Assembly (NCBI GenBank): GCA_963922205.1
Contig: CAWUHX010000144.1
Location: 310,001 to 374,000 of the forward strand
Source of the DNA: Romanomermis culicivorax
Lineage: Eukaryota > Nematoda > Enoplea > Mermithida > Mermithidae
Reading direction: 5' to 3'
DNA length: 64,000 bases
Shown: positions 4,543 to 40,289 of the stretch, piece after piece
Position numbering within the stretch: position 1 is the stretch's first letter
How the letters are laid out: the number at the start of each line of letters is the position of its first letter
Made by a program: the position numbers and the translations under genes
Notes under the pieces: model-generated
Seen by the model: only the letters and a program-made list of their open reading frames with translations
What the model was told of the DNA's origin: nothing
Database searches by the model: none

Positions 4543-5578
4543 CACTGTTTTTTTCCACATTTGCACTATAATGTGGAAAAAAATCTTGAATGTGGAAAAA
4601 ATTTTTGAGGTCTTTCCACAAATGTGGAAGAAAAATTTGGGGTTTCCATATTGGAAAGATGCATTTTGGTGCATTTTAGGAGGTCCAAATCTCAAAATTT
4701 TCCGGCGCTTCGCGCCGGTTATAACTTTAATAATCATCATTCATTATTCATTAAGTAGCTCAGGCGTGGCTTTTATCATGTCTACCTTCATTTATCACTT
4801 AATCTATAATAGTTTTCATCATCTTAAACGTAGCATCTCATGTTTTAATTGATAATCTTCAACATTTCATCATAATATTCAATGAAGATTCGCATTTTTT
4901 CCTTTTGAGAAAAATCAATATACGTCAGGTCTCTATGCTTTATGATGCGATTATTTCTTTGCTAACAAAAAATCAATTCAAAAGCTTCATGGAAATATCT
5001 TTCGGAAATTTATACTCTTCTTACTCATATATTTTTGACCAAGTTCATGAGAGTTTACAAATAAATTACAGATTTTAAAATTTTTCAAGTAAAATTCTAG
5101 AAATTACGACTCTTGAACACAAAATTAGAATCTAATTCTTGAAATAAATGTTCGGAAAATTGATTTTCCAGCATCCCAGAATGTCAGTATACCCAAAAAA
5201 TTTTCCGGCGCTTCGCGCCGGAAACATTACCATCTTTTTTGGGCTTTCGCTTGTCATCATAGAGGACTTGACCATTGATTTCTTGTGTAATTCAAGTCAA
5301 TTATGCACTTAGATAGTTTGTTAGAAAATTTGTTCAACAATGCTTGTAGATTAGGCTTTTAAGTCGAACATTTCAATTTTTTCTTCAATTTGAATGAATT
5401 AACTTCTCTAAAAACACCGTAAGGCTTGAAAAAGCTCAAAAACAGTGCGATAAACCGTCTGTGAGCATTTTTAAGCCAAAAAACGAGGATTTTAAGACAA
5501 AAATTTTTTTCCACATGTGGAAAAAAATTTGACCCCTTTCCACATTTGTGGAAAAAAAGTTCGTGGAAAAAAACAGTG
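4543..5578 (-). mobile_element. Complete CCACA-word element inserted into its own family member
   Basis: A 1036-bp copy opening CACTGTTTTTTTCCACA and closing GTGGAAAAAAACAGTG, with perfect duplication GTTTTAAT at 4535-4542 and 5579-5586. Both ends hold CCACA/TGTGG words, several as short palindromes such as CCACATGTGG. The interior matches the surrounding outer element and contains the hairpin CCGGCGCTTCGCGCCGG at 4702-4718 and 5205-5221. Confidence 0.9.
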
Positions 5579-6699
5579 GTTTTAATTGGTAATCTTCAAT
5601 ATTTTATCACAATAATATTTAATGAAGATTCACATTTTTTTCCTTTTGAGAAAGATCAATACGTCAAGTCTCTATGCTTTTTGGTGCGATTATTTCTTTG
5701 CTAACGTAAAATCAATTCGAAAGCTTCATGGAAATATCTTTCGGAAATTTATACTCTTCTTACTCATACATTTTCGACCAAGTTGATGAGAGTTTACAAA
5801 TAAACAGGGTTGGCAAAAACCAAACTTTTGAAATTTCGACTTTTTAGTTTTTTAGTGGTTTTTTATGGTTTTTTAATGGTTTTTTTAGTTTTTCTATGGT
5901 TTTTTAGTGGTTTTTTTCTGGTTTAATTCTTTAGAATGTTTGGTACATCAAAATAACTATGTAAAAACTGCTGGAAGCTCCCTGTATCATCTAAGACTAG
6001 TTAGGGAGCCTTAAAATGGCAGCTAGAAGTATTAATCTTATCGGAAGTGTCATTATTTTATGCTATAGGAAATCCCTACTATAGCAATAGAAATACAGTA
6101 ATAGTGGGCACATAAGAAAGGAACCATGAGTGAAGAACATAAGAAAAAGAACAGAGCATGTGATATGTAAGGGGCGAATTCAAGGAAAAGAAGAAAAATT
6201 ACAAATAAAGAGGAATATACAATACACAATGTAAGTTATCTAAATTCAAAAGAAATCAACTACAGAATTGTATCAATGCATCACATATATACATATGCAC
6301 AGAAAAGTTGAAATGACACAATACCATTTTCGATAAGAGGGTTTTAAATTGATAGATTATTACATATGTTATTAATATTACAAACTGCAGTTGAAGGTCA
6401 CACATAGACATTTCAGATGTTTCCAAATTTTTGCTTTTCAAACCTGTCTGCGAGCTATAACTACAGCAAATGGGTCTTATTGTATATACTATTCTCGCAT
6501 GCATGATAGATACGTATTTTTGTATGATTTTTTCTACTTAGTGGCGATGTCAAGTCACATAAAAATGAGCCACTCAAAAGCTCTTCTCTTTGTTAACCTA
6601 CATTATGCTTAACTGATCTGTATAAAATTTTATTGTTGTCTCATTTATATTTTGAAATTTCGAGCCAAGAAAATTGAAAAGCTTACCGTTACAATAAAT

Positions 6700-7393
6700 T
6701 CAGGATATTAAACTCAATCATATTTCTTTGATAATTAGAACCTTTATTTCCCAAGATACTTCTAACCTTGTACGCGCGTTTACTGTTTATGTTAGACCCC
6801 TGCTAGAATATTGTTCAACTGTTTGGAACCCTTACTATGCCTCTGACATAAATCTCATTGAAAAAGTTCAGAGAAGATTCACAAAGGGAACATGGGGTTT
6901 TGGGTCTATCCTTTCATATGATGAGCGTTTAACTAAGCTATGCCTTGATAGCTTAGAAATACGCCGACTACGTGCCGCCTTATGCATGATGTTTCAAATT
7001 ATTAAAGGCCACTCCTGTCTGCAAAAATCGGACTTCTTTATTAGCAGTAATTTCGAGTTTACCCGTCGTAAAAATGACTACAAACTCAAAACAGGTAAAG
7101 CTAAAACAAATATTAGATTATATGATTTTTCCAACAGGTACATTAATATATGGAATGAACTTTCAGCTGAAGTTCATTACCGTCATTAACTTGTTTACTG
7201 TAGCGCATATTTTCGCTGCGGTATTGTATTTGTCGTTTTGAAGTAGCCGTCGATTGAGTTTTCGAAACTTTTCTTCCTTTTCTTATTTCATTTTAATCGT
7301 TTGTTCTCGCGTTTTAACCTTTTTTCTTTTCTTGTGTTATATTTCGCCTGACAGGTAATAAATCTTCTTCATTCATTCATTCATTCATTCGTT
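6700..7393 (+). pseudogene. 3' fragment of a Jockey/CR1-type LINE, C-terminal reverse transcriptase region
   Basis: The frame at 6728-7189 encodes the conserved C-terminal region of non-LTR reverse transcriptases of the Jockey/CR1/Rex type: VRPLLEYCSTVWNP, then IEKVQRRFTK, then YDERLTKL and LEIRRLRAALCMM in order. Catalytic RT and endonuclease domains are absent, fitting 5' truncation. It ends in a short (ATTC)n tract at 7370-7393, the likely LINE tail. A more decayed relative lies at 45690-46380. It sits inside the hAT-like element 5805-7799. Confidence 0.8.
7370..7393. repeat. (ATTC)n microsatellite, probable LINE tail
   Basis: Tandem ATTC units follow the LINE coding fragment directly. 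A similar but shorter tail (ATTTCATTCGTTCAATC) follows the second copy near 46358, so the tract probably belongs to the LINE family. Confidence 0.65.
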
Positions 7394-8327
7394 CAACATT
7401 TTGATGATGATATGGATCAAGAGATGTCATCCCGTATGGTCGAATTACACTCCACGAAAGATTTAGCATCTACTTTTTTGTGAGCAAATTATAGAAAAGT
7501 TGACTCATGTACTAAATGTGTGCTTGCAAGATGGATACAAAGGATATCGATTGATTTATATTACATTTTTTGAGTACGAAATGTATCATAAAAATACGAC
7601 TTTTTTCTACTTTGTAGTGAAGTCAATTCAACTAAATTAATTGTTTTGTTGATTTAGATAGACACCAATACATGCCTAGAAGATCGACTAATGTGAAAAA
7701 ACAGTTTCCCAATGATTTTGGAAAAAAACTAAAAAACCAGAGATTTTCCAATTTTTTGGTTTTTTTTAAAACCAAAAAACCAAAGCCTTGCCAACCCTGC
7801 AAATAAATTACAGATTTCAAAATTTCTCAAGTAAAATTCTAGAAATTATGACTTTTGAACACAAAATTGGAATCTAATTCTTGAAATAAATGTTCGGAAA
7901 ATTGATTTTCCAGCATCCGAGAATGTCAATATACCCAAAAAATTTTCCGGCGCTTCGAGCCGGACAGATTACCATTTTTCTGGGACTTTCACTTGTCATC
8001 ATAGAAGACTTGACCACCGATTTCTCGTGTAATTCAAATCCATTATGCTCTTGGATAGTTTGCTAGAAAATTTGTTCAACAATGCTTGTAGATTAGGCTA
8101 TAAAGTCGAACATTTCAATTTTTCTTCAATTTTGATCAATTAACTTCTCAAAAACACCGGAAGGCTTGAAAAAGCTCAAAAACAGTGCGATAAAGCGTCC
8201 GTGAGCATTTTAAGCGAGAAAACGGGGATTTTAAGACGAAAAAAATTTTTTCCACATGTGGAAAAAAAATTTGACCCCTTTCCACATTTGTGGAAAGAAG
8301 TTCGTGGAAAAAAAACAGTGTTGCGGA

Positions 8328-9612: not shown

Positions 9613-10485
9613 TAGTGCAAATGTGAAAAAAAAACAGTGGCGGAGCGAGACAGTGTTTTTTTGTGCACGAACATTTGTGCCAATTAGCACGAAGGGCCAA
9701 AAAAAATTTGTGCCAATGGCACAAAAAAAAATTTTCACCCTCAAAACATACTGAAAACCTTCAAAAAGTTTTATGCCAAAGGTTTGATAAAATTAAGATA
9801 CTTTTACCGCAATAATTTGCATAAGAATCGTGCCTACCCTATTTTATCTGACCACGTCATTGAGATAAAAACTGATCGAGAAAACGATTTATACGATTCG
9901 AAAAAAATCGCATTGTGCGAGAATTCAGATATTTTTATAAAATTTATCAGGAAGTTTATAATTTTCTTTAATTTTCGGTTTTCTTCCTAACAATTGCTGT
10001 CTCCTGAAGAAAACTTGCCAAAGTTGCATAAATCTTCGGTCGAAAAATTGTGCCAACAATGTCAATTTTAACAAACATCAAAAATAAAAATTTCGGTTCT
10101 CGGTACAACCACTGAATGAACAGAGGAAGTCCAGAATTGCTATTCATTCACCGGTCGTTATGGACAAGCTATAAGTTCGCTACAGTGATACAAATATACT
10201 ATTAGAAGGTAATTCACTCGCGTTCGAAGCAAATAAAAGTAGTCAATTTTGCGCTTTCAGCCATACCTGTAATTGGGGGGAGGTTGAGGGGGACCCCCAC
10301 TTCCAACATGGTCGAACCCTATACCCAAATGTCGGGACCCCACCCCCAACTTGGTCAACCCTATACCCAACCCCTTCCCAAACTTGGGAAAATTGGAAAA
10401 AATTAGAAAAAAAGTGACGTTTTTTGGCCTTTTTGGGGAAATTTTCGAAATTTTTTCGACTTTTTGGGGGTTTTTCTACCCCCCC

Positions 10486-12062
10486 CAGTGCTTTTTTACT
10501 GTGCAAAACATTTTCCGCTCGTGCAAAACTTTTTTTTCAGATTTTTTGCACCGTGCAAAAATTTTTATCAAATGTGGAAAACAATTTTAAAGTTTTCATA
10601 TATAAAAGATGCATTTTGGTGCATTTTAGTAGGTCCAAATCTCAAAATTTTCCGGCGCTTCGCGCCCTTTATAGCTTTAATAATCATTATTATTTATTAC
10701 CAAGCTCAAGCGCGGCTTTTAGCAGGTCTACCCTCACTTATCACCAATTTTGGAATAATTCAAGTTTACGATATTTTCTCATTTTTTACGGAAAACCCGT
10801 TTTTGGGGTTTTCCATGATGTTCGACACGATTCTGAATTCGAAATAAATGGCGCTCATGAGGTTCAGTGGTCAAAAAGTGAAGAAAAGCAAATTATGCAA
10901 AGGAGCAAAAGTAGGCAATTTTCACCACTAAAATTGCGTTAACTGAAAATTTAACCTCCACATACCTAAGCCTAAGCCTGAACTATAGACTAAGCCTGAA
11001 CCTAAGCCTGATCCTGATCCTAAGCCTAAACCTAAGCTAAGCCTGAACCATAGACTAAGTCTGAACCTAAGCCTAAACCTGCACCTAAGCCAAAGCCTAA
11101 GCCTGAACCTAACCCTAAACCTAAGCCTGAACCTAAGCTTAAGCCTAAGCCTAAGCTTGAACCTAATTCAGAGCCTACGCCTGAACCTAAGCGTGAACCT
11201 AAGCCTAAGCCTCAACCTAAGCCTATGCCTGAACCTAAGGCAAAGCCAAAATCTAAGCCTGGAGCCTTGTGTTTTTTCGACTTTTCGACCACTGGAGTCC
11301 ATCAGCGCCACTTATTTCGAGTCCAGAATTGTGTCCAGCATCATGGAAGACCCTAAATCAAGTTTTTCCTGAAAAATGACAAAAAACGACAAAAAACTCC
11401 ACAATATCACTGCAAAAAAAGAATTAAAAATATCCATTTTTCCCTTATTTAACCCCTCATAAATCGGTGCCCGATGTTTGCCGCCATCTTAACTAAAGTT
11501 TTCCTGATGTTTCATGCCTCCCTCGACATAGTCATACCGGAAACTTGAATATATCCCTAATTTTAAATAGTTTTCATCGTCTTAAATGTTTACTTGGCGA
11601 TTTTCAATGTATTTATGATTAATGAATATCCGCATTTTTTCCTTCGTACACTTTTTGAGAAAGATCAACAGGACAACTTTCTAAACTTTTTGAAGCGTTT
11701 GTTCCTTTCTTAACGTAAATTGAATTCAAAACCTTCATGGAAGTATTTTTGGAAAATTTCTACGCTTCTGATTCATCAGGTTTTCGGCCAAATTTATAAA
11801 AGGTTACGAACAAATTATTGGTTTTAAAATTTTTCGAATGATAAAATTTCTAGAAATTATGATTAACAGAACATTCAAATCTGATTTTTAAGTTTTTTCC
11901 AAAAAATTTTCCACATGTGGAAAAAATTTGACCTTATTTTTGGAATAAAATTCGTGGAAAAAGTGATATATTTATTTATAGTACAAAAAAAATTTTTGGC
12001 GTGCAAAACTTTTTTGGTAATTTTTTTGCACCGTGCAAAACAGCTCGTACAAAAAAACACTG
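10486..12062 (-). mobile_element. TGCAC-word hAT-like element, innermost of the nest
   Basis: It begins CAGTGCTTTTTTACTGTGC and ends GTACAAAAAAACACTG. Both ends carry TGCAC/GTGCA words, including the palindrome TTGCACCGTGCAA at each end. The inner side matches the common roughly 1-kb interior (AAAAGATGCATTTTGGTGC). The flanks ACCCCCCC and CCCCTCCC are compatible with an 8-bp duplication in a C run. A degenerate TTAGGC-type array lies inside. Confidence 0.7.
10965..11266 (-). repeat. Degenerate (CCTAAG)n, TTAGGC-type hexamer array
   Basis: About 300 bp dominated by CCTAAG and variants (CCTGAA, CCTAAA). Read on the minus strand this is TTAGGC, the canonical nematode telomere unit. It lies inside a transposon and is heavily mutated, so it is interstitial, not a chromosome end. 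Confidence 0.8.
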
Positions 12063-12414
12063 CCCCTCCCCAAAATTTTGGAAATGTTGGGACCCTCACC
12101 CCAAAGTTTTGGGTTTACCCTCCCCCCCAACTAGTCGAACTTCTTACATGCATGCTCTCAGCCCCTAAAATAACTAAAAATCAAGGAAATTTAGCCCTAG
12201 ACCAGCCAAGAAATTTGTGCCAATTGGCACAAACGCTCAAAAATTTTTTTGCCATTCCAAATTTTTTGTGCCAAAAACCAAGTTTTGGCACAAAAAACAC
12301 TGGAGCGAGATCTCATCTATCATCCATTCGATTGGCCGAAAAATTTTATGTCATCAATTTGATTCGAAAAATTGTAGTCTAATCCTTCCTAACCGTGAGT
12401 CCGCCTAAGTCCAC

Positions 12415-25629: not shown

Positions 25630-26534
25630 CTTAACGTACCTGCTAAAGCAGTACTGTAAATATGTAGCATACTGTATGTGATAGACATTTATTAAATATT
25701 ATTCATTTTCGTATTTTATCGTCTCAAGGGTGTCTGGGATTCACACCCAAACATTCCTACAAAATTACGTGAAGTACTTTATTTTGATCCGTTCACACCC
25801 CGGTAGCCCAATTAAGATGCCCTAATTAATTTGCACAAACGGCAGCTGTTCCGCTAGAACCTACACTAAACTACACATTCCACAGATACCGTAATCCCCC
25901 GTAAAAATCGTAAACAACACCTGCACACAGTAAAATATGTAGAAGCCCCGCCAGACAGTAGTCTCAAGTGTAACGGTAGCGGCGGCCCCACAAAACATGT
26001 GTATACAGAGAAACCGATACAGGAAGCATGCACAGAAGCACAAAGGTGTGGCCAAGCCCACCGTAGAAAGCAAGCAAAGCACAGAAAGCCTACAGTACCA
26101 GAAAAGCATTAAAAAGGCGTAACTAAGAAAGCACAAAAAGCGTAGCAGGAAATGACGATTGGCGGAAGAAGATGGACAGAAGCTCGACCTCCCGCAACGC
26201 CCAGGGAGTGGCCAGAAACGTGGTATAAAAGAAGAAGCAAAGCGTGATTTGATCATTCTTATTCTTGTGGTTTTACATTTTTTCGACTTCCGCGCTCGCC
26301 CCGTCATTTTTTTATATATTTGCAAGCGGCCAATTGTCCGAAAGCAACTTAAACCGAGGCCCCGTTCGTATTATAAATCGAAACGTGTTTTGTATTGTCG
26401 ACGTTCAAGCGACCGTCGATCATTCGTGTATTATCGCCCATATTGTACCGCCCACGCCCCATCCCGTTATTCCGTCCCCGCCATATTGACCATTGGTTAG
26501 AAGTAAAGTACCTCACACAAATCTGGTCGTTACA
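25630..26534 (+). repeat. 5' LTR
   Basis: 905 bp matching 34043-34941 almost throughout. It ends GTCGTTACA. Its first two bases are CT where the 3' copy has TG. It has a 6-bp length difference near 26250 relative to the 3' LTR. An antisense frame of about 150 codons is open in both LTRs but resembles no known protein. Confidence 0.93.
26224..26230 (+). promoter_or_regulatory. TATA box of the 5' LTR promoter
   Basis: TATAAAA lies in the context GTGGTATAAAAGAAG, conserved at the same place in the 3' LTR. It would start the genomic transcript about 25-30 bases downstream. No other core promoter element was assigned. Confidence 0.6.
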
Positions 26535-26539
26535 TATTT

Positions 26540-26557
26540 TGGTGACTGTACCGTTAC
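26540..26557 (+). other. Candidate primer binding site
   Basis: TGGTGACTGTACCGTTAC starts five bases after the LTR end. The leading TGG is expected for pairing with a tRNA CCA tail. The matching tRNA could not be identified without the host tRNA set. Confidence 0.4.
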
Positions 26558-26777
26558 GTTAACCACTGGAACTCCCTGCCCCCAATTAGGTGTACTCTTA
26601 TCCGGGCATTTAGAAGCATTAGATAATACAGTAGTAATCATTTCCTACAGTAAGACAGTATTCATAGAAAGCAAAGTGGAAACCCCCTCCAACGAAGCAT
26701 TAAGCGATACATTTAAACGAATACAGCGTGAAGCAAAAATTGAAGCATTTAAGCAGAAATCCCAGCGTAAACCAAGA

Positions 26778-28568
26778 ATGACCCACCAAACACAAGATCA
26801 TTTAGGAGAAATCGTTAGAGAGCAGATAAACGATTTATTTTCAGAACATTTTCGTACCCTACCCACACAATTGAATCAGAATACAGTAAACCCTACCCTA
26901 ATAGACGATCTAAGAACAGCAAACATTCGTAATAACATGGCAAATAATTTCTACGCGAAACCTACAGTATTCACGGGCGGCGTGACCCAACATTTTGGTG
27001 AATGGAACAAAAGATTAGAACAATTCATGGCACTCCAAGGCATGAAAGATACAGACGTACAGTTAAAGTTGGCATGTTTAGAAATTCATTTAGGAGGAGC
27101 TGCGTTAGCAAAATTCAAAAGTTTAGCAAATTCCGAAAACCCTCCCCACACATACGAGCAGTATAAAGTCGCATTACAGGCCTTTTTCCCAAACAATAGA
27201 GATAATGAGCTACATCAACAATTCTTATGCGAAAGGAAGCAAAAGCGATCAGAAACAGTGACTGAATTCTTATTTGATCTAGAACATCTCGCAACCCTCG
27301 CCTACCCTAACTTTAACACAGACGCACGAGAAATGATCATAAAACCCCTCTTTGTAGAAGGCATGCAAAACGAAATCAGGGAAGCAATTAAGTATAGACA
27401 GTTCGCGACTCTAAAAGAAATGTCAGACGAAGCAGCTTACATTGAACAGCAAATCCTTAGAAATGAGTTAAAATCTAACGCCCTTCCCTTCATACCCCCA
27501 AAACCCGAACCCATCTTTTCCTTAACCAAAAATACAGATCAACAGGACCTTTTGCATCAGTTAGAACAACAAGTAAAAGATTTACAGTTGCAGATCAAAC
27601 AAAAACCTCAACCCCCACAACAGAGTAGCTACAACAATTTCAGTAACAATACTTTCAGCAGGAATAATGCTTACAGGAACAATACCACCCCTAGGCAACC
27701 CACATGCTTCCAGTGTGGACAAATTGGACACATAGCTCGTAATTGTAAATCAGTAGGCACCCGAAAATCATGTGAAATCTGTTTCCGTAATAATCACAGT
27801 ACACGTGATTGTAAAAGCCGATGCATCCACTGCTCCCAAACAGGACATAGATCTGATAACTGCCTTTCAAAACCCTACTCAAATTTTCAATGTTTTCTAT
27901 GCAAGCAGAGAGGTCATACAAGCAGGTATTGTCCAAATCAACAGAGTCGTAATATTCAAAATTGCATTGAGTACAGGCAACCCCAACCCCTCATGGACAT
28001 TGATGACCCCGCATTTTACTCAAAATTACCCGCCATAACTAATGGCCCTCAGACTACTTTAGGAACAATTATGCCCACTACCCACCGCCGCAGTGACGAA
28101 TACATCCTCGACCTCGACGTACCCGATTGGTGCACCATGTCACCACCCCCCACGCCTGAAGCCGCAAAAATCGAAAAATCGCCGCCCACCATCCCCGTAG
28201 GCTACAAGATCCCCCGAAAGCAAGACACCACACCGCCCAATGCCCCCGAAACCCCATTGAAAACAGGCCGCAACTTAATGTCCCTTTTACACGGCCTGAC
28301 CCCTGAACCCTACCATTTCCGCCCCCGCCAAACACTTCTACCAACCCCCACAAGTAAGCAAGTCCAAACCCCATCCCATAACTCAACTTCTAAGGTTTTA
28401 CAGAATGTTCAGATTGCAAACCGGCCACCCCCCCCCCCAAGCTCAAAATCGCAAAACGACAACACCAAAAGCCCCAACACCAAACCGGCCACAACGAAAA
28501 CATACAGTGCCCCGCCTCCTCCACTAAAACATTCTATTGGCCGATGTTTTGTATTTTTCTTTGTATAA
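26778..28568 (+). CDS. gag: Gag polyprotein (capsid and four-knuckle nucleocapsid)
   Basis: The structural protein of the retroelement particle. I chose the ATG at 26778; the frame is open from 26493, but that part overlaps the LTR and begins with TTG. It gives 596 residues. An N-terminal retrotransposon-gag type capsid region includes FGEWNKRLEQFM and LHQQFLCERKQ. A short coiled coil follows (DLLHQLEQQVKDLQLQI). Then come four CCHC zinc knuckles at 27704-27932, each of form CX2CX4HX4C, and a long Pro-rich tail. Four knuckles is more than the usual one or two. The stop overlaps the env start by 25 bases, env being in the -1 frame. Confidence 0.9.
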   Translation: MTHQTQDHLGEIVREQINDLFSEHFRTLPTQLNQNTVNPTLIDDLRTANIRNNMANNFYAKPTVFTGGVTQHFGEWNKRLEQFMALQGMKDTDVQLKLACLEIHLGGAALAKFKSLANSENPPHTYEQYKVALQAFFPNNRDNELHQQFLCERKQKRSETVTEFLFDLEHLATLAYPNFNTDAREMIIKPLFVEGMQNEIREAIKYRQFATLKEMSDEAAYIEQQILRNELKSNALPFIPPKPEPIFSLTKNTDQQDLLHQLEQQVKDLQLQIKQKPQPPQQSSYNNFSNNTFSRNNAYRNNTTPRQPTCFQCGQIGHIARNCKSVGTRKSCEICFRNNHSTRDCKSRCIHCSQTGHRSDNCLSKPYSNFQCFLCKQRGHTSRYCPNQQSRNIQNCIEYRQPQPLMDIDDPAFYSKLPAITNGPQTTLGTIMPTTHRRSDEYILDLDVPDWCTMSPPPTPEAAKIEKSPPTIPVGYKIPRKQDTTPPNAPETPLKTGRNLMSLLHGLTPEPYHFRPRQTLLPTPTSKQVQTPSHNSTSKVLQNVQIANRPPPPPSSKSQNDNTKSPNTKPATTKTYSAPPPPLKHSIGRCFVFFFV

Positions 28569-30427
28569 TAATCCCCACATCGTGTAGTGCCCAATTTCAG
28601 ATGTGTGGAACTTCATTGAGCGGTCACTCAGTCAGCATACCAAAACTTGTATCATGCATGCCCCCTTCCACAGTAGACAAACCCGTACAGACATTCGGAA
28701 AAATCTATATCCCCTCCACTAAGCCCCACATTACAGACGCATACAAATGCAGTGTTTGCAAACGCAAAATTTGTACTAATACAGGATTTTTTGGATCAAA
28801 AGGTATTGTCTTCGACCAAACCGAAATGCAAAATCTAACCCCACATGTTTGTAAGGCAATCGTTATAGACAAAGAACACAACGGTCAAAAATTATACGAA
28901 ACCCAACCAGGATTTTGGTCAACAAACAACTCCCTAAGTGTAGAATACACATGGTGTTGTACAGACCATTGTACCTCGGTCACTAACGTCATCATAGAAA
29001 TAGGACAAATAGCATCTTGGAATGGAAAATCTATGACAGGTACATTAGGTGACCTGGGGTCATGCAAACCGACATCAGGTCATTGTGTCACAGCCGACGG
29101 ATCTATTATCTGGAATGAAACAGCATTTGAAAACTTATGCCCCTTCGAATACAAAAATACACATCCCATCAAACTCACGCAAACCCACATGATAATAGAA
29201 GAACTACAAGGTGCATTCTCGGTTAAAAACACACTCTTTTCGCACCCCAATTGCCCAGAAATCCAAGACAGCATTCTAACCGAACAAGGCATTATTGTAC
29301 AATTAGACAAAAGCACACCACATCGTAACGCATTTTTAACCCCAAAAACCAACGAAACCCATACTACACTCTACGATTTTGATGATTTTGAACCCATCAA
29401 CGTGAAACTAAATTATCTAGCAGACAAAATCCAGGAATTCGAAATTCAAAATTTCAAAAATGTATGGAGTGAATCATGCAGACAGGCACAGCGTCACCTT
29501 GATCTCGTATGGCAAATTTTACGCCTTGATGCAACCCTTGGAGCACGTGCATTCCTACAGAGAACCGACATCATAGCAGAATTCACAGGAGAAGCCCTCA
29601 CAGTCTGGCCTTGCAAGCAGGTAAATGCATCTAAAATCTTTTACAACCACAAAATCAACCAAACATGCTACAAACTTTTACCCATTCTTGTAGGAACCAA
29701 ACTCATGTTTTCGAATCCAGGAGGCAACGATTTGACCCCTTTCTCACAAACCGTTGACTGCCATCACATGCATGTAGCCCTTTACAAACAGAATAATACA
29801 TGGGTCAGTGAAACAGGATCCCCGCATGTCACCAATTTACAGTTAGAAATCGTCTGGAACCAAAATTTCTCCCTTTTCCATTTTAATACACCCGCCATTT
29901 TTCATGATCAACTTGCAACTATTTCAACCAACTTACTCTTTTTGAAACAATACATTTACAAAACTCGCACACTGGAAAATGTTGTTAAAAAACTCGTCAA
30001 TTACACCGCCCAAATGTTTCTCAACTCAGATACAGTTTACAACATGATCTCAGGCACTGGCCAAGCACTCGGAAATACCCTCTCTGGCGCCGGTCAAGGC
30101 ATAGAACATGTAATAACTGGTACCACCCAAAGTCTCGCGGACGGATTAAACAATTTACTCAAAGGACCCCTGCAAATCATTATAAATCTAGCCGTTATTA
30201 CTGTAGTTATTGCAGGCGTCTTTTATTCTTTTCTCGTCCTTCGAAAATATTTCCCCTCTCCAAAGCACCATGCCACAAACGAACATGCATACGAAATACC
30301 ATCGAACAACAGACATTTACGTGAGACCATTTCCCCATCATTCGGCCATGCCCTCTTAGAATTAGCTAATCGTCGTGGGGCACAAACGCAGCAGAAATAC
30401 GTCCTTGTCGATATTGATACCCCCTGA
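28544..30427 (+). CDS. env: Env-like membrane glycoprotein located between gag and pol
   Basis: A 627-residue frame with an N-terminal hydrophobic signal-like segment (FCIFLCIIIPTSCSA), a large Cys-rich ectodomain with many N-X-S/T sites, and one strong transmembrane segment near residues 545-567, followed by a tail of about 60 residues. This is the design of a viral fusion glycoprotein. A central segment with LRLDATLGARAFLQR and EALTVWPCKQV looks like glycoproteins of some arthropod negative-strand viruses (chuvirus type) and LTR elements; I recognise this by pattern only. It starts in the gag tail. A good acceptor-like CCCAATTTCAG at 28590-28600 precedes an internal ATG, so expression from a spliced RNA is possible. 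The frame runs on into the protease after a single TGA. Confidence 0.75.
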   Translation: MFCIFLCIIIPTSCSAQFQMCGTSLSGHSVSIPKLVSCMPPSTVDKPVQTFGKIYIPSTKPHITDAYKCSVCKRKICTNTGFFGSKGIVFDQTEMQNLTPHVCKAIVIDKEHNGQKLYETQPGFWSTNNSLSVEYTWCCTDHCTSVTNVIIEIGQIASWNGKSMTGTLGDLGSCKPTSGHCVTADGSIIWNETAFENLCPFEYKNTHPIKLTQTHMIIEELQGAFSVKNTLFSHPNCPEIQDSILTEQGIIVQLDKSTPHRNAFLTPKTNETHTTLYDFDDFEPINVKLNYLADKIQEFEIQNFKNVWSESCRQAQRHLDLVWQILRLDATLGARAFLQRTDIIAEFTGEALTVWPCKQVNASKIFYNHKINQTCYKLLPILVGTKLMFSNPGGNDLTPFSQTVDCHHMHVALYKQNNTWVSETGSPHVTNLQLEIVWNQNFSLFHFNTPAIFHDQLATISTNLLFLKQYIYKTRTLENVVKKLVNYTAQMFLNSDTVYNMISGTGQALGNTLSGAGQGIEHVITGTTQSLADGLNNLLKGPLQIIINLAVITVVIAGVFYSFLVLRKYFPSPKHHATNEHAYEIPSNNRHLRETISPSFGHALLELANRRGAQTQQKYVLVDIDTP

Positions 30428-33400
30428 ACTCCTGCAATCGAACTCATTAATCAAATTCACCAATCTGCATCAAATAAGCCACCCCAAAATGTACCTGAGA
30501 AACATACCCCTCATATTCCAATCACACTTAATGGCAAATTAATGACGAAACGCATGATTGACACTGGTGCAGTCTACTCACTCATTGATTCCCGAATCGC
30601 TCAAATCTTGCAGTTAGACATGAAACCCCCACTAGTCCAAGCAAAAGCAGCAAATAATCTTCTGATTCACTTTGTAGGAACCACTTTTGTCACAGTGACA
30701 GCCCAAACAATCCAGGAAACAATCATGGTCCATGTCCAAAAAGATTGCACAGCAGACATCCTTCTAGGCAAAAACTTTCTCAGTCGATTTTCGGAATATA
30801 CTATCAACAATCAAAAATCTCAGGTCAAATTTGGCAATGTCATACTACCTTGTGACGGCCTAGAATACAGCCCACTTTCGACCCGTGGTGGAACTTATCT
30901 AGACGAGAAATTAGAATTACCACCCCATACAGTAACCGAATTTACTGTCCCCTTGCCCAAATCGTACTTACAGGTCAAACAGCTTGAATTCACCCCGAAA
31001 CCCAAACAGAATCCTAAAGTCCATTTCGCAGCCTGTATCTCTGAAAACCAAAACAGTTGCATACGCATATCCGTTCTAAACACACAAGAAACAGCTCAAA
31101 TTCTTTACCCCCGAACATGCATTGGTACAGTCTCCTGTTACATCCCAAAACAAAATGCTCCCGCTAACGTAACCCCCTCCACGCAAAACCAGCCCAACCG
31201 TTTTGATACATTCACATGGTTGAAAGAAAATGTTAATTTAGCCTCCAGTGACCTGACAGAAGCAGGAAAAACGCAACTCCTACGTGCACTATCGAAGTAT
31301 CCTACATTATATGCTAAATCCAAAATGGACGTGGTAGAACCACCCTCGTTTCACATACAATTGACACCAATGGCTCCCAGCCCGTACGTAGACAACTTTA
31401 TCGGACTTCCCCAAAAGAAAAGCAAATCATACAAGCAGAAGTTGAGCAACTCGCAGCAGCAGGTGTCATAAGCCAAAGCAATTCCCCATGGTGTACCAAC
31501 ACAGTTTTAGTCCCCAAAAAAGATGGAGGCCATCGTCTATGCATTGATTTTTGAGGCCTCAATAAAGTAACCAAAAAAGATACATATCCCTTGCCCCGCA
31601 TAGATGAAATTCTCGACACCCTACGTGGAATGAAATATTTTACGTCCCTTGACCAATCCAATGCATATTATTCCATTCCTATAGCACAAGCAGACAGAGA
31701 AAAAACGGCCTTTAATTGCTCAGCCGGCCAGTATCAATTCAATTACCTCCCTTTTGGACTCACCAATGCCCCAGCCACATTCCAAAGGTTAATGGATGTT
31801 ATTCTTTCGGGTCTGCAATGGAACACATGCCTTGTATATCTCGACGATGTTTTGGTATTCGCAGACTCCCATGCCCAAATGCTGGAACGTTTAGACACTA
31901 TTCTTGCCCGATTCTCACAAGCAGGCCTTAAACTAAACATACAAAAATGCAAATTCTGTCAGCCCCAAGTCCAATACTTAGGCCACATCATTTCTCAGCA
32001 AGGCATTTCACCAGATCCCCATAAGGTACAGGCCATCTATGACATACCCACACCCAAAAGCTCAAAAGAAGTTAAGTCATTCCTTGGCCTACCCTCCTAT
32101 TATCGCAGATTCATCCCAAATTGCTCTCAAGTTTCTAGCCCACTCACATCGCTACTCAAAAAGAATTCCGAATTTTCCTGGGGCCCCGAACAGCAAAACG
32201 CATTCACCAAGCTAAAAGAATTACTCATTCATGCCCCAATACTCCAGCATCCCGATTTCACAAAACCGTTTATTCTGCAAACTGACGCCTCGAAACTCGG
32301 AATCGGCGCCATTCTCAGTCAGCTAGATAGTAAAGGTCAGGATCGCCCCATTGCTTTTGGGAGCCGCACATTGAAACCCGCAGAACGCAACTACCCGATC
32401 ACTGAGTTAGAAACCCTTGCAGTAGTTGAGTTTGTCAAGTATTTCCGCCCCTACCTTTTCCAGCAACATGTTATTGTACACACTGACCATACAGCAGTTC
32501 AGGCAGTCTTACAGAAGGAAAACCCATCCCCTCGCATTGCCCATTGGGGATTAGCCCTCTCCTGAATTCAGCTAGACATTTGCCCTAAGAAAGGCACTGC
32601 TAACCGCAACGCAGATGCAGTTTCTCGATTCCCCTCACAGACAGCAAAGCAATCCTTTGATATTGAGCAATTAGAAACCCGCCCCGAAATATCCACCATC
32701 AATTCTGTTCTTGAGGCCGAAGCAACTGAACAAGAAGAACAACAGAAAAATTTTGCCGAACTCCAACGCACTGATCCAGCTGTCAAAAGTATTTTAGCAA
32801 AAATCGCCCAAAAACACCCCCTTACCCTGATCAAATTCGCAGTGCATCAAAACATCCTCTTCCGTATAGTCGACAAACAAGCAAAACTATACATTCCCAA
32901 GTCACAAGTCCAGCATCTCATCGCTTCACATCATGACAGCAAATTCACAGGTCATTTTGCAGCCCGAAAAACTTTACACTTGCTCAGACAAAAATATTTT
33001 TGGCCCCAAATGAGCCGTGATATCAAACGTTACTGCAAAACTTGCCACCCATGCCAGACACAGAAAGCCCTCCGACACAAAATACATGCAAATTTGGTAC
33101 CAATTCAGCCGACTGGCCCATTTGATAGAGTCGGTGTTGATTGCATGGGACCGTTACCCCTCACTGAAGATGGCAACCGATTCATTGTCGTTTTCATCGA
33201 TTATTTCACAAAGTATGTAGAGGCATTCCCGACCCCTGATATCACTGCAGCCACTATTGCCAAGCTATTCGTAACCAAAATTGTTTGCCGTCATGGGTCC
33301 CCAAAAATCATCCATTGTGATCGTGGCTCCGATTTTGTATCCGATCACTTCTCACGCATCACCAGTTTATGCAATACTCAGAAAATTCATACCACCCCAT

Positions 33401-34011
33401 ATCATCCCATTGCCAATGGGGAAGTTGAGCATTGCAACCAAACCCTAGCCACCCGTATCCGCATGTACATCAATTCAAATCACACTGATTGGGATACTTA
33501 TCTCCCATATGCCGTTTTTTCGATCAACATTCATAAAAATGATAGCACTTCATATCCCCCATTTGAATTACTCCACGGTAGGCAAGCTAATCTGCCGTCA
33601 GACGCAGCTTTAAATTTTTTCCCCACGTCCTACATGGTTGATTTAGAAGATTACGCCCTTCGTGTAAAATCACATTTTACAGAAGCACTCTCAACCGTGC
33701 AGAAAAGTTTACAAAAAGCCCAAGCCCACTATACCCGTCAGTATAACAAGCATGCTCAGAACATACACTACAAGGCAGGTGATCTTATTCTCTACAAAAA
33801 TCATTCGTGTAAACAAGGGCTGACTCCCAAATTCCTCCCTCGCCAAAACGGACCCTATACAGTTACAAATTTCATGTACCCCAATGTTACACTCAAACAC
33901 CCCCATAAGAATATCACATTTACGGTGCATGTAAATGAGACAACCCCTTTCTACCCTCGGAAAGCAGCTAACGAATCTACCCCCACCCCTCCTCAACCTC
34001 GAAAGCCTTGA
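30428..34011 (+). pseudogene. pol: Pol: protease, reverse transcriptase, RNase H, integrase; disrupted
   Basis: Aspartic protease with catalytic DTG at 30560-30568 and a later ILLGKNFL motif. Reverse transcriptase has the FGLTNAPATFQ motif and active-site YLDD at 31836-31847. RNase H has TDASKLGIG and VHTDHTAV. Integrase has an HHCC zinc finger (about 32930-33065) and a DDE triad at 33139, 33319 and 33427, with the standard D-35-E spacing and a GPY module near the C-terminus. Breaks: the reading frame changes between protease and RT around 31365-31390, and TGA codons interrupt the RT at 31552-31554 and the RNase H region at 32563-32565. Protease is in the same frame as env, separated by the TGA at 30425-30427. 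This copy could not make an intact Pol without recoding. Confidence 0.88.
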
Positions 34012-34029
34012 ACGAGGACGTTCAACTCC

Positions 34030-34042
34030 GGAAGGAGGGAAA
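34030..34042 (+). other. Polypurine tract before the 3' LTR
   Basis: GGAAGGAGGGAAA directly precedes the LTR TGTAATG start. It would prime plus-strand synthesis. Only 18 bases separate it from the pol stop, so there is no room for an env in the usual place. Confidence 0.85.
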
Positions 34043-34941
34043 TGTAATGTACCTGCTAAAGCAGTACTGTAAATATGTAGCATACTGTATGTGATAGACA
34101 TTTATTAAATATTATTCATTTTCGTATTTTATCGTCTCAAGGGTGTCTGGGATTCACACCCAAACATTCCTACAAAATTACGTGAAGTACTTTATTTTGA
34201 TCCGTTCACACCCCGGTAGCCCAATTAAGATGCCCTAATTAATTTGCACAAACGGCAGCTGTTCCCCTAGAACCTACACTAAACTACACATTCCACAGCT
34301 ACCGTAATCCCCCGTAAAAATCGTAAACAACACCTGCACACAGTAAAATACGTAGAAGCCCCGCCAGACAGTAGTCTCAAGTGTAACGGTAGCGGCGGCC
34401 CCACAAAACATGTGTATACAGAGAAACTGATACAGGAAGCATGCACAGAAGCACAAAGGTGTGGCCAAGCCCACCGTAGAAAGCAAGCAAAGCACAGAAA
34501 GCCTACAGTACCAGAAAAGCATTAGAAAGGCGTAACTAAGAAAGCACAAAAAGCGTAGCAGGAAACGACGATTGGCGGAAGAAGATGGACAGAAGCTCGA
34601 CCTCCCACAACGCCCAGGGAGTGGCCAGAAACGTGGTATAAAAGAAGAAGCAAAGCGTGATCTATTTATTCTTGTGGTTTTACATTTTTTCGACTTCCGC
34701 ACTCGCCCCGTCCTTTTTTTATATATTTGCAAGCGGCCAATTGTCCGAAAGCAACTTAAACCGAGGCCCCATTCGTATTATAAATCGAAACGCATTTTGT
34801 ATTGTCGACGTTCAAGCGACCGTCGATCATTCGTGTATTATTGCCCATATTGTACCGCCCGCGCCCCATCCCGTTATTCCGTCCCCGCCATATCGACCGT
34901 TGGTTAGAAGTAAAGTACCTCACACAAATCTGGTCGTTACA
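34043..34941 (+). repeat. 3' LTR
   Basis: 899 bp beginning TGTAATGTACC and ending GTCGTTACA, giving a 5-bp inverted terminus. It matches the 5' LTR with scattered substitutions and one 6-bp length difference. The conserved TATAAAA is retained. Confidence 0.93.
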
Positions 34942-35410: not shown

Positions 35411-36710
35411 AAACAATGGCAATGCAGCATGACTCCAAGCAAAATAGATTATTTATCATGGTCTGAATTGTCTGCTGTCACATTTTTATACTTGCAAGTT
35501 GACTGTATGCGAAAAATTCTACACTTGCGTGGAACAGTTACAGGCAAGAAGCCCAAATTTTTTTTGGCAATTTTGCTGTATCTTTTGTAAGGAATAACTC
35601 ATTTGTTGATATTCATTATTTCACATTTTTACTTCCTTGTACAATTTTCTCTAATGTTAGCTAACTTTTCTAGTTCGATTCCGTGTTTCATGTTTGCTCT
35701 ACAGTTAAAATTTTGCTATAATTAGCTATCTATTGGAGTTCGACCATTATAATGAGAATAATATTTACTTAGCTGTTTTACTGCTTATAAACCTTTTTCA
35801 TAACAATAGATTTGCAGAGAAGCCCAGAACTATTTGCGTGATTCGCCATAGTTGTAGTCCCATTACGCTATTATTATAACTGCTACCAATCAGTTACACA
35901 ATTACCCTCGTATTAGGGCTACTCAATAAAACTCGATATTGTTATATTGTTATACTTTCCCATGCTCTTATCTGCTGTCTTATTCTGTCATCAAGCACCT
36001 AGTCTCGTTTTTGAGCAATAGTCCAGCTTGATCTACATGATTTCAAATTGCATATTGTGCATCTAAACTGTAAAACGGTTTCATTGTTGCAACAACCATT
36101 TTAGAAAAACTAATTGTAGTCTGTTTTTCTTGAAATGCTGGCAAATAATAGAACTGGAGTGGAAAGCGAGGAGTATTTCCCATTTAATGATTTTCTCGTA
36201 AACATGTCACACAAGGGCAGGAAATTTGTGACCATACTTGAATAATGCTCAACAAATTTTTTGAGTAGTAAATCTCCTTGTGGGCAGTACTATTCATTTT
36301 ATTCATTTTTCAATTATTAGCATAATTAAAATAGGGCTATTATTCAGTTTTCTTATGAAATTTCTGTAAGTCAAAATATGATTAAAAATCGCATACACAA
36401 GTAGTTTTTACTGTATAAAATCACAAAATATCCAACACACAACTTTATTTCTGCTATCGATGTTTACCAGAATAACAATAGAAATGGACTAACCTATATT
36501 ATAGTTAGCAGTTTGACTTGCGTACTTTCCATTATTATTTTTTACAGCTGTTTTGTCCGAGGAACTAAAAACTCAACGATCAAATGGGACAACATGAAGT
36601 CGAGCGTGATGCTCGGCATTGATGAACTAAAATTAATGCTCAAATGTAGGAAAATGAGTCAACAAATGTCTTCTTCTTGCACTGCTTCAACGTCGGATAT
36701 GAAAAAATGA
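35411..36710 (+). CDS. Candidate 3' gene end with a SAP-like motif, two exons
   Basis: Exon 35411-35586 follows a strong acceptor (ATTTTTTCAG) and ends at TTTT|GTAAGG. Exon 36548-36710 follows TTTTTTACAG and ends at TGA. The phases join correctly (2 plus 1). Together they encode 111 residues. The segment DCMRKILHLRGTVTGKK followed by a hydrophobic stretch resembles a SAP-type helix-loop-helix in spacing. The remainder is polar, with a Ser-rich end. No upstream exon is recognised; it may lie on the other side of the retroelement, which would then sit in an intron. Function unknown, and the call rests on splice sites in a low-repeat region. Confidence 0.35.
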
Positions 36711-36840
36711 CAAAAAACAGTTGCTACCATGTTGTATAAGTTTGAATTTTTATTGTGTTGTATGAAATAAGAAGCTCATATGATTCGAGTGTGTTAATTT
36801 CTGAGAAAACATCAACAGGTGTTACTGTTTTTTATGATTG

Positions 36841-38031
36841 AATCACGTGATTGATTGTTTCACTGTATTTTGAGTCTGGCCAATAACAGGCAGATGCGAA
36901 GCGAGATCTGTCATCATTTTGATTAGTCGAAAAAAGTTAATGATTTTTACAGTTGTTTCTGGCAAATTTTCTGGCTTAGCCTCACCGTTTTTTTTCCTCG
37001 AAGATTTTTTCCACATGAGAACCGGACCCAAAATTTTTTTCCTCATTTTCCAAAAATTTTCCACATTTATAAAAACGCTTATAATGTGGCTACGGATGCT
37101 TTTTTATGCATTTTAGGAGCATACCCATGCATTTTGTTGTATTTGGAGTCAGAAACCTGCAAAAATAAGAAAAAAATTGAGAAAATCCAAGTTATATTAG
37201 CCGAAATGAGCTCATGCATGAAGAATATATTGGTATTCTACAGGAGCGGGTGAAGCATGTTAACGAATAACGATAGAGTTTTCAGGAATTTATCCGCTAT
37301 TAACAATTCTATTTCTATGGCTCTCATTAGAATCATCTAATTTTATTTAGTCCTTCGTCCGGCGCGGAGCGCCGGAAAATTTTTTGGATTTTCACTTTCT
37401 ACAACGCTGGAAATTGAACCTTCACAACGTTGGGAAATAAATTAAAATTTAAAACGCGACTCATGAAGTATATAATTTGTTTCCCATTCCGGCGCGGAGC
37501 GCCGGGAAAATTTTTCAGTTTTTATATTCTAAAACGCTGGAAAATAAATCTCTCCAACAGATATTCATAAACAGAAGTTCGAAAATCGCAGTCTAGAATG
37601 ATGTCTTCAATTTCTATCTTCATTAAACGCAAAAGTTCAGGTTGCAGACGTTTAGAAAGTACCAAACATCGAGAGAAAAAATTGAGAAAATTGATGAAAA
37701 ATCTCAATATTGGGCGACATAATTGACTGTTAACGATTAGAAAATGAAACGAGCTAACTTGATTGATAGAAACTGTTGAGCATTAATTAGTGAGTCGAAG
37801 TAGATATGCTAATGGCCGCGCCTGATAGAAAATAGTCAAGATTGTACCCGTGACCGGCGCGAAGCGCCGGAAAATTTTGAGATTTTGACCCTTTTAAGTC
37901 CACCAAAACGCATCTTTTCGGTTTGGAATTCTCCAAAAATTTTTCCTCAATGAGAACCATACCCAAAATTTTTTTCCTCATTTCGAAATTTTTTTCCTCA
38001 AGAGACCCCATTTGAGGAAAAAAAAACGGTG
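36841..38031. repeat. Mixed CCTCA/CCACA-word repeats
   Basis: Near 36980-37065 CCTCG, CCTCA and CCACA words alternate between A/T runs. At 37915-38031 a complete CCTCA-word end occurs (four CCTCA/TGAGG words, then a long A run and CGGTG) attached to the common interior orientation. CCGGCGC palindromes lie at about 37358, 37487 and 37854-37870. Confidence 0.6.
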
Positions 38032-38162
38032 CTTAGCCTTAGACTCAGGCTTAGGCTTAGGCTTAGGTTTACGCTTGGGCTTAGGCTTAGGATTAGGTTT
38101 AGTATTGGGTTTAGACTTAGGCTTAGGCTTAGGCTTAGGCCTGGGCTTAGGCTTGGACTCAC
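38032..38162 (+). repeat. Degenerate (TTAGGC)n array
   Basis: About 130 bp of TTAGGC with variants such as TTGGGC and TTAGGT, directly after the CCTCA-word end. A second, minus-strand array is at 10965-11266, and a short remnant is at about 44298-44352. Confidence 0.8.
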
Positions 38163-38304
38163 GGTTAGGAAGGAGTAGACTACAACTTTCCGACCAATCG
38201 AATTGAAGGTGTGAAATTTTTTCACCAATGAAACTGATGACAGATCTCGCTCCCTAATGCTTTGTATAACAGGAAAGCATAGCAACAAAGCATTGCCTTG
38301 CGGC

Positions 38305-38750
38305 CATACATGTAATTGGGGGGGGGGGGGGAAGTGCTATGGGAACCCCCCCCCCCAGAAATCGTCGACCATATGGCTAGCCATTGGGCGACCCCCCCCC
38401 AGGATTTTCCAATCCTATGGCTAGCCATATGGTAGCCCTAGGGACCCCTATAGTTTTAGTCGGAAAAATACTGAAAAATGTCATTTTTTTCATGAAAAAT
38501 GTCAAATTTTGAACAAAAAATGGTCAAAAACGTCAATTTTCTCGGCGCTCCGCACCATAAGTACATATTTTATCATTTTTTAGACAAAAATTACTACTTT
38601 TTAAACCGTTTTTCGGACATTTTTCATGAAAAAAATGGAATTTTTTTCCTTCAGGGACCCCTCCCCCCAAAATTTTGGGAATTACTGACCCCCGGCCCCA
38701 AAAAAGTGCTCCAACCCCCCCCCAGACCTCGGAGCTCCGTTACGTGTATG
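38305..38750. mobile_element. CATACATGTAA-terminus MITE
   Basis: 446 bp with perfect duplication CTTGCGGC at 38297-38304 and 38751-38758. It contains long G and C runs, the words CGACCATATGGCTAGCC and a GGCGCTCCGC remnant of the hairpin. Orientation is as in the 18114 copy. Confidence 0.9.
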
Positions 38751-38927
38751 CTTGCGGCATGATTTTTTTGCACACAGCAACCAAATTTCGGGCTGTGCGT
38801 GCAACCAAATTTTTTGTATCAAGTTGCACAGTGCAAGCCGGAGCCTGACGGCCGTTATGATTAGGTTACAGTGTCTCCTGTCCGAAGATGCATTTTTATG
38901 CGGTATAAAATGGGAAATAGTGAAAAT

Positions 38928-40289
38928 CATACCTGTAGGCCCCCGACCAGTTGGGGGCATACCTGTACTTGGCCCTGGGGGGGGGGGGGGTTGGGGTGGG
39001 GACCCCCAACTTGGCCAACCCTGTACCCAAAATCATTTTCCCCCCAACCCCCCTCCAGTTTGGAAAAAATTAAAAAAATTTGCAAAAAAGTGTATGTTTT
39101 TTGGCCTTTTTTGGGAAAAATTTCGACTTTTTTCTACCCCCCCCCCAAATTTCGGATTTACCCTCCCCCCAACTGGTCGGAGGCACTGTTTTTTTCCCCG
39201 GGCCTTTTCCCCAAATGGGGAAAAGGGTCAAAATTTTTTTCCCCATTTTCCCGGAGTCGTTTTTTTTCGCTTAAAAATGCTCACAGACGCTTTATTTAGG
39301 TGTTTTTGAGCCTTTTCAAGCCTCCTGGTGTTTTTAGACCCGTCAATTCATTAAAATTGAGGAAAAAATTGAAATTTTCGAGTTCAAAATTTAATCTACA
39401 AGCATTGGAACAAATTTTCAAGCAAACTATCCAAAAGCATAATGACTTTGAGAATTACATGAGAAATTGATGGTTAAGTTCTCTATGATGACAAGTGAGA
39501 ACCCAAAATGAATGTTAATCTTTCCGGCGCGAAGCGCCGGAAAAATTTTTTGGGTATTGATATTCTGCGACGCTGGAAAATCAATTTTCCGAACATTTAT
39601 TTCAAGAATTAGATTTGAATTTTGTGTTCAAAAGTCGTAATTTCTAGAATTTTACTTGAAAAATTTTAAAACCAGTATAATTTATTTGTAAACTCTCATA
39701 CTTGGTCGAAAATATATGAGTAAGCAGAGTATAAATTTCCGAAAGATATTTCCAAGAAGCGTTTGAATTGATTTTACGTTAGAAAAGAAATAATCGCATC
39801 AAAAAGCTTAGTGACTTGACGTATTGATCTTTCTCAAAAGGAAAAAATGTGAATCTTCATTAAATATCATGATAAAATATTGAAGATGACCAATGAAAAC
39901 ATGAGATAATACGTTCAAGATGATCAAAACTATTATAAATTATATGATAAATGAAGGTAGACGTGCTAAAAGCCGCGCCTGAGCTAAGTAATGCATAATA
40001 ATGATTATTAAAGTTATAGTCGGCGCGAAGCGCCGGAAAATTTTGAGATTATGACCTTCTAAAATGCACCAAAATGCATCTTTTCTGCATCCGATCCCCA
40101 AAATTTTCTTCCCCAAATGGGGAAAGAGCCCAAAATTTTTTCCCCTTTCCGAATTTTTTTCCCCGAAAAAGCACGATTTGGGGAAAAAAACAGTGGTCGG
40201 AGGTCTTACAGGTATGGGGGGGGGGGGGGTTTGGTGATGTTGGGTACATGGTTGGTCAAGTTGGGGAGGTCCCCCCCAGTACAGGTATG
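38928..40289. mobile_element. CATACCTGTA-terminus MITE, split by a CCCC-word element
   Basis: Starts CATACCTGTAGG and ends AGTACAGGTATG with perfect duplication GTGAAAAT at 38920-38927 and 40290-40297. The left end is doubled: a second CATACCTGTA starts about 33 bases in. It is interrupted by 39184-40195. Confidence 0.85.
39184..40195 (+). mobile_element. Complete CCCC-word hAT-like element
   Basis: 1012 bp, opening CACTGTTTTTTTCCCC and closing GGGGAAAAAAACAGTG, with perfect duplication GTCGGAGG at 39176-39183 and 40196-40203. CCCC/GGGG words occupy both ends. The interior matches the CCACA-word element 4543-5578 throughout. Hairpin CCGGCGCGAAGCGCCGG at 39524-39540, and CGGCGCGAAGCGCCGG again at 40021-40036. 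Confidence 0.92.

Follow-up and report, generated by a model that had tools for sequence, protein, structure and literature searches.

The stretch of DNA considered here, 64,000 nucleotides of the mosquito-killing mermithid nematode Romanomermis culicivorax (contig CAWUHX010000144.1, positions 310,001 to 374,000; below, the window), contains several short transposons whose ends are built from repeated words. A scan of the window for CANNG termini and 8-bp duplications recovered eight elements, among them 4543-5578 with the word CCACA, 39184-40195 with CCCC, 36983-38031 with CCTCA, and 9651-12302 and 41714-42540 with GTGCC (Table 1). These elements are non-autonomous and hAT-like, with about five short words per end. 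They are flanked by 8-bp target site duplications (TSDs), and their termini (CACTG, CACCG, CAGTG/CAGCG) agree with the CANNG-type consensus of the short terminal inverted repeats (TIRs) of hAT elements. The ends of the CCACA consensus, built from 17 of 27 copies after exclusion of 10 without complete termini, hold ten word sites, those of the left end at positions 14, 31, 51, 76 and 83. Like miniature inverted-repeat transposable elements (MITEs), the elements are non-coding and occur in many near-identical copies, although their length of 0.8-1.3 kb is long for a MITE. No long transposase-like frame was found in them in the list of open reading frames (ORFs), which was read by eye with no profile scan of these ORFs.

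Searches of the 359-Mb genome assembly scored 40 candidates each, window copy included, and the copy counts are therefore lower bounds. Among the matches listed, and besides the window copies, there were 39 near-full-length copies of the CCACA element at 93-95% identity, 39 of the CCCC element at 95-98%, and 39 of the CCTCA element (37 at 92-96% and 2 at 88-89%) together with further pieces. An element with the word CAAGCC has at least 39 further copies, each matched as two abutting pieces without the insertion at 57942-58161 of the window copy, two of them stopping short of the end. Since dozens of copies are listed for each, these four word versions are families. A perfect 8-bp TSD flanks 19 of the 25 scorable CCACA copies (two of 27 loci could not be scored), and TSDs within one mismatch flank 7 of 10 CCCC copies, one of which had no scorable TSD, and 8 of 10 CCTCA copies. 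One CCACA copy (L023, C27:65840-66960) has lost the outermost half-word of its right end, so that the terminus is joined to the next word pair, and keeps its TSD GGTGGAAT; ends apparently can be rebuilt yet stay mobile.

The initial annotation of the window had proposed that 4543-5578 and 39184-40195 share interior and termini while carrying different words at aligned positions. This is borne out by an end-to-end alignment of the two in inverted orientation at 83% identity, in which the quoted word pairs face each other. The words CCACA, CCCC and CCTCA differ at one central base, CC[A/C/T]CA, and stand at matching places when the CCACA consensus, two CCCC copies and two CCTCA copies are aligned. 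At all seven of the ten sites that align cleanly between CCACA and CCCC, the base changed from A to C (T to G on the other strand); of the other three CCCC sites, two show GGG at a shifted place and the third has been deleted. The same changes affect 13 of 549 A/T positions of the interior, and the change of the words is thus far beyond chance. In word counts restricted to the forms CCNCA/TGNGG, the ends of 10 further CCCC copies show the C version at 69 of 69 words, leaving out the few sites mutated out of these forms (e.g., the outermost half-word of one copy, which is CCACC). The ends of the 27 CCACA copies have A as the central base in 231 words, C in 26, T in 25 and G in 2; the C and T words amount to roughly one each per copy, which fits the spacer sequences TGGGG and TGAGG. 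Where two words face each other as a CCNCA-TGNGG palindrome, their central bases agree in 75 of 77 cases inside the loci targeted with CCACA and in 18 of 21 outside them (11.2 expected if independent), and no palindrome in either set mixes A and C.

The CCTCA family is less uniform (central base T 49, A 28 and C 17 in the ends of 10 copies). In nine of the 10, one arm retains CCACATGAGA (with CCACGTGAGA in the tenth), most other sites are switched, and inner CCACA/TGTGG relics persist. An unswitched arm and inner relics are what stepwise recoding would leave, and the CCTCA family may be read as a fossil half-step of that process. The initial annotation had confined this element to 37915-38031; its ends and hairpin are indeed related to those of the other families, but it spans 36983-38031, and identity to CCACA falls to about 56% in the middle, the ends and the hairpin block being better conserved.

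The GTGCC elements had been described as keeping the end layout on a different interior. The layout is kept, but sequence is shared too: one end, with its hairpin, aligns over about 180 bp with CCCC (69%, E 1e-14 and 8e-12), and a stretch of 144 bp aligns with CCACA (69%, E 3e-10), so that an unrelated interior is ruled out by the homology of the end and hairpin block. The right end of the GTGCC family bears the left-type scaffold with GTGCC words, as seen on copy L046:879-1720. The spacers were compared with words masked, termini trimmed and simple shuffles (200 per pair, two-base blocks) as reference. Left-type ends of CCACA, CCCC, CCTCA and GTGCC match one another with z-scores of 5.6-10.3, and right-type ends do so more weakly at 3.3-7.1, the GTGCC right-type end reaching 6.7 to CCCC but only 3.3 to CCACA and 3.7 to CCTCA. 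Left-type against right-type ends of these four families never exceed 3.1. CCACA, CCCCA, CCTCA and GTGCC therefore occupy the same positions of one scaffold, with the spacers retained and the words agreeing within a copy.

Ends with the words TGCAC, CAAGCC, GGCCA and AGGAG were not counted as versions of this scaffold, their masked z mostly lying below 3 against ends with other words; the highest values were those of the right TGCAC end (4.5 with GTAC_L086, 3.7 with CCACA_R and 3.6 with CCTCA_R). The CGCCA end (L028) gave 3.6 with CCCC_R and 3.9 with GTGCC_L, and GTAC ends up to 3.5 with the four scaffold families. A GTAC-word element with CACTG terminus and TSD GTTCATGG lies at L044:6210-7060; its end layout is similar and its masked spacers match the scaffold weakly.

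Because the spacers around the words are retained, the contrast between CCACA, CCCC, CCTCA and GTGCC is one of recoding on one scaffold, and whole-end exchange as its only cause is ruled out. The initial annotation had supposed that ends are exchanged or co-evolve as a set: the words do change together and ends do move between interiors, as described below, but exchange does not account for this contrast. Its argument that point mutation cannot easily change scattered copies in step was too strong, as each CC[N]CA switch is a single base, and selection for mobility could drive such switches. In the material examined the interiors proved homologous, and in the copies examined the words do not vary independently, apart from the one fixed unswitched CCTCA site.

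Besides recoding, the abundant young CCACA family combines CCACA-type ends of one lineage with an interior of the CCCC lineage, clearly so at the left end and with thinner data at the right. Compared with the young consensus, the old CCACA element at 52239-53031 is 95.5% identical in the left end and only 76% in the interior, whereas CCCC is 89.5% identical in the interior and 72% in the left end; the left-end spacers of 4543-5578 likewise agree with the old CCACA copies and not with CCCC. Sliding identity switches near consensus position 115-125 and again, less sharply, at 930-945. At diagnostic sites with the words masked, the sites at which the young consensus agrees with old CCACA stand to those at which it agrees with CCCC as 23:1 for the left end, 24:108 for the interior and 12:5 for the right end (p 1.6e-13 and 2e-5, Fisher's test). 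The comparison of interior and end trees that had been suggested as a check shows them to be incongruent. The ends separate CCACA from CCCC-type with a support of 100, and approximately unbiased (AU) tests reject a single history for ends and interior: for the interior, they reject a clade of all CCACA copies (p 0.014) as well as one of all CCCC-type copies (p 0.004), and for the ends, the joining of CCACA with CCCC. CCCC-type ends also occur in L038 and L046a, with interiors that fall outside the CCACA+CCCC grouping; the CCCC end thus seems to predate the divergence of the CCACA and CCCC interiors. Most likely, to judge from these alignments and trees, the young CCACA family acquired its ends, or its interior, through recombination. 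The left breakpoint adjoins the block GATGCATTTTGG ... CCGGCGCTTCGCGCCGG, which is nearly unchanged across CCACA, CCCC and CCTCA and is a plausible place for template switching. The hairpin CCGGCGCTTCGCGCCGG with its flanking AAAATTTT (4687-4718 and equivalents) recurs in these families, both close to the left end and within the interior, almost unchanged where the remainder has diverged, and similar hairpins occur in AGGAG and GTGCC elements.

In elements with the words CAAGCC and TGCAC, ends that cannot be related to the scaffold flank the same interior, though the right TGCAC end may be a version of the scaffold. The initial annotation had rightly assigned the shared interior to both; that their ends share the scaffold layout could not be shown. 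CAAGCC ends are 37-43% identical to scaffold ends (left end against CCCC, 38.5%). Between the two junctions, at about 104 and 867, the interior has an identity of 84.7% with the CCACA consensus and of 87.7% with the CCCC element (39184). A second CAAGCC copy (L129) has flanks that match in the six bases compared by eye. The TGCAC element retains a decayed CCACA right end and part of a left end inside its own ends, and a second copy (L050) has the same left junction; no clean TSD was found at the flanks of 10486-12062. This element also holds a satellite-like CCTAAG array (window 10953-11261), which matches tandem repeats in L039.

Table 1. Word-bearing elements of the window and their parts (positions in the window).
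Feature	Position	Strand	Remarks
Older outer CCACA element	3794..8320	+	TIR and 8-bp TSD TTGCGGAC on both sides; from BLAST pieces
Three insertions interrupting 3794-8320	3932-4373, 4543-5578, 5805-7799		
Complete CCACA-word element, non-autonomous, hAT-like	4543..5578	+	TSD GTTTTAAT twice; CACTG...CAGTG termini; nested in 3794-8320
Left end module of 4543-5578: CACTG, T-run, five words (CCACA/TGTGG), fixed spacers	4543..4658	+	
Conserved block with hairpin CCGGCGCTTCGCGCCGG, just inside the left end	4687..4718	+	Near the mosaic breakpoint
Right end module with words and CAGTG terminus	5478..5578	+	Consensus sites 966, 971, 996, 1003, 1017
Complete CCTCA-word element, CACCG termini	36983..38031	-	TSD CTTAGCCT; one unswitched CCACA arm, inner CCACA/TGTGG relics
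Complete CCCC-word element, CACTG...CAGTG termini	39184..40195	-	TSD GTCGGAGG twice
Truncated CCCC-lineage element inside a GTGCC copy	209..1119	-	93% to 39184-40096; interior groups with CCCC in trees
Old CCACA element	52239..53031	+	Right end 89% to the young CCACA consensus
Truncated old CCACA copy (left-type end and ~180 bp)	43894..44172	-	
TGCAC-word element, old-CCACA-lineage interior, nested in 9651-12302	10486..12062	+	Flanks ACCCCCCC / CCCCTCCC
Relic TGTGG word of former CCACA left end, within TGCAC end	10570..10579	+	By eye
Relic CCACA right end (CCACATGTGG ... CGTGGAAAAAGTG), within TGCAC end	11911..11965	+	By eye
CAAGCC-word element, CCCC-lineage interior	57152..58466	-	TSD CTTCCCCC/CTTCCCCT, one mismatch; later insertion at ~57942-58161
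GTGCC-word element (CAGTG), host of the TGCAC element	9651..12302	+	TSD GAGCGAGA
GTGCC-word element	41714..42540	+	TSD ATTGTGAA

The surroundings of these elements are themselves rich in repeats. Poly-C/G-rich insertions at 57942-58161, 10262-10486 and 38957-39146, some with the motif CATACCTGTA, lie inside or beside them and are a further repeat family. A retroelement at 25632-34941 has terminal repeats that are 97.3% identical and, by eye, long gag/pol-type frames and one glycoprotein-like frame. The ORF at 55220-56476 matches a heparan sulphate N-deacetylase domain protein of R. culicivorax, with 99% identity across 80% of the frame. Searches of the window for tRNA genes and Rfam families gave no match. 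The published genome of this species was given as more than 270 Mb, with a GC content of 36% and about half of it repeats (PMC3890508; this paper and the others cited by PMC number were covered in portions).

A genome search for partner transposases yielded 1837 candidate hAT dimerisation domains and 799 zf-BED candidates, of which 150 each were scored, many zf-BED matches lying in short reading frames. A hAT fragment in L036 was ruled out as a partner, its end being CAGGGTTGG (by eye). The 3' flanks of 32 hAT domains carried other words (GGATCC, GGTTTC, GGTTCC, GGGTACC, CGAGTC etc.), many with the termini ...CATCCCTA or ...CATCTCTA, and these domains, too, were set aside. In some hAT families a differing word stands beside similar termini (GGGTACCCGTTGCATCCCTA, GAGTACTCGTTGCATCCCTA, GGTTAACCGGAACATCCCTA) in the 3' flanks, so that word divergence is not confined to the elements with T-runs. 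A second hAT group with ...CATCCCTA ends (L049-L078) has similar termini with different palindromic words (GGGTACCC, GAGTACTC, GGTTAACC and others) and thus displays word divergence where the transposase domain is at hand. GGATCC-word hAT derivatives that retain a BED frame and the tail of a dimerisation domain (L085, L086 and L088; G000 C15, C9 and C309) are joined at the identical point to a GTAC-word T-run element in all three copies; a score of 43.9 bits is common to 37 zf-BED matches including L085, and this type may be an amplified composite.

Subterminal words of known hAT elements are protein binding sites. In Ac/Ds, the hexamer AAACGG is the site of the Ac transposase (PMC3260210); in Hermes, subterminal AAGT sites with rigid spacing are bound by BED domains (PMC10368747); and hAT-derived BED proteins have diverse motifs, those of four hAT-encoded ones matching the subterminal regions of their own elements (PMC8097297). 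By analogy, the words described here are most simply putative sites of a transposase's BED-type DNA-binding domain, with which their fixed spacing is in keeping.

We consider it fairly probable that recoding on a scaffold, exchange of ends between interiors and capture of interiors by different ends together shaped these families, and that changes of transposase, to which the words would act as keys, drove the process. Short gene-less hAT-type transposons would be moved by transposases encoded elsewhere, each end serving as a scaffold, with a CANNG terminus, a T-run and A/T spacers of fixed length, on which about five copies of the word would be displayed. When the specificity of the available transposase shifts, elements with words recoded toward the new site would amplify stepwise; ready-made ends could then spread among interiors via template switching or gene conversion, aided by the conserved hairpin block, and an interior would occasionally be captured between quite different ends. 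One cargo might in this way outlive several transposases by changing keys. The claim that this amounts to a key-changing system, in which a gene-less cargo has a standard frame with a recodable word (at least four words) and the coded ends circulate as two-sided modules, is put forward tentatively. Several observations tell against this account. Among the 32 hAT 3' flanks searched for these word ends, as the initial annotation had advised, there was none in which the T-run scaffold formed the end of the hAT element itself, the end being unplaceable in several (e.g., L052, L060, L063, L078). Few old copies underlie the mosaic, five for the left end and one for the right; the interior grouping of CCACA with CCCC is supported at 73 only; and, for the ends, the tree that failed the AU test separated CCCC from L038 and L046a as well. 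The z-scores of the GTGCC right-type end to CCACA and CCTCA are no better than those of the uncounted TGCAC ends, so that its placement rests on the match to CCCC. Furthermore, strong constraint on the ends could imitate part of the mosaic pattern.

Constraint is in fact the core of an alternative without exchange, in which transposase-bound ends evolve slowly while interiors drift, and a single, rapid adaptive change turned CCACA ends into CCCC ends. The ends are short and functional, the old and young CCACA elements differ far less in their left ends than in their interiors, and stepwise change is seen in CCTCA, all of which this alternative would explain. However, L038, L046a and (at its inner boundary) CAAGCC bear CCCC-type ends, with the same spacers and ATCGGATACAG, which is at odds with this alternative since the interiors of all three branch outside CCACA+CCCC. 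Monophyly of the interiors is moreover rejected for both types, and word positions were left out of the diagnostic sites; we therefore regard this alternative as unlikely. A role of the words as targets of host repressors (zinc-finger or BED-derived proteins, or small RNAs), with families escaping silencing by changing all words together, seems to us quite improbable. Host proteins derived from hAT BED domains do bind diverse motifs (PMC8097297), and the many scored zf-BED matches in short frames would suit such repressors. Nevertheless, the words are at the ends, in fixed phase to the terminus and among conserved spacers, every set of words goes with mobile, TSD-flanked copies, and escape would be expected to favour scattered loss over replacement by another word. 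Finally, A/T-rich ends may resemble one another by chance and nested copies are hard to assemble, but an artefact of either kind is very improbable: each family has dozens of copies, spread over different contigs and flanked by distinct TSDs, word-masked spacers beat shuffles by up to z 10.3, and left-type ends match right-type ends poorly.

How DNA-binding specificity and many scattered sites change together is an open question, for which transposon ends with multiple sites provide a compact case. The present genome combines four versions of the word on a single scaffold with a putative fossil half-switch and a mosaic pointing to end exchange, which makes the sequence of events and the corresponding changes in the proteins directly testable. 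The arrangement suggests how gene-less elements could outlive their transposases. If key changing is true, the genome would preserve successive transposase specificities as a fossil series, half-switched intermediates included, and the matching BED domains should differ correspondingly in their recognition residues.

A search of literature titles found none on in-step recoding of words on a conserved scaffold, which is weak evidence of novelty as most subscription journals lay outside its coverage. Non-autonomous hAT elements and MITEs such as Ds of maize and mar of Drosophila share with the present families the 8-bp TSD, subterminal words and lack of a transposase gene, and CANNG-type termini are also common to them. 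Most Ds classes, however, keep the word while internal or filler sequence varies, whereas here interior and scaffold persist and the word varies. Hermes is similar in having several short repeats per end, two of them forming a quasi-palindrome, bound by BED domains at rigid spacing from the TIR; the portion covered deals with one element, for which binding was shown, while here it is a prediction (PMC10368747). For Galileo of Drosophila, exchange between dispersed copies and template switching have been invoked to explain structural change, but it belongs to the P superfamily and has long TIRs, and a word set is absent from the portion covered (PMC4168063). The piggyBac-type CMITEs of corals resemble the present families in that the interior is more conserved between families than the termini and that a novel element was formed by insertion; they differ in being about 100 bp long, with a TTAA TSD in place of the 8-bp one found here and with differences in the TIRs, and neither in-step recoding of words on a scaffold nor a tree-based test of exchange appears in the portions covered (PMC2872659). 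The greater conservation of the interior holds for CCACA/CCCC (interior 89.5%, left ends 72%) and CAAGCC/CCCC (87.7% and 38.5%) but not for CCTCA, in which the ends are better conserved. Of the systems compared, coral CMITEs are the closest precedent seen for a conserved interior with different termini.

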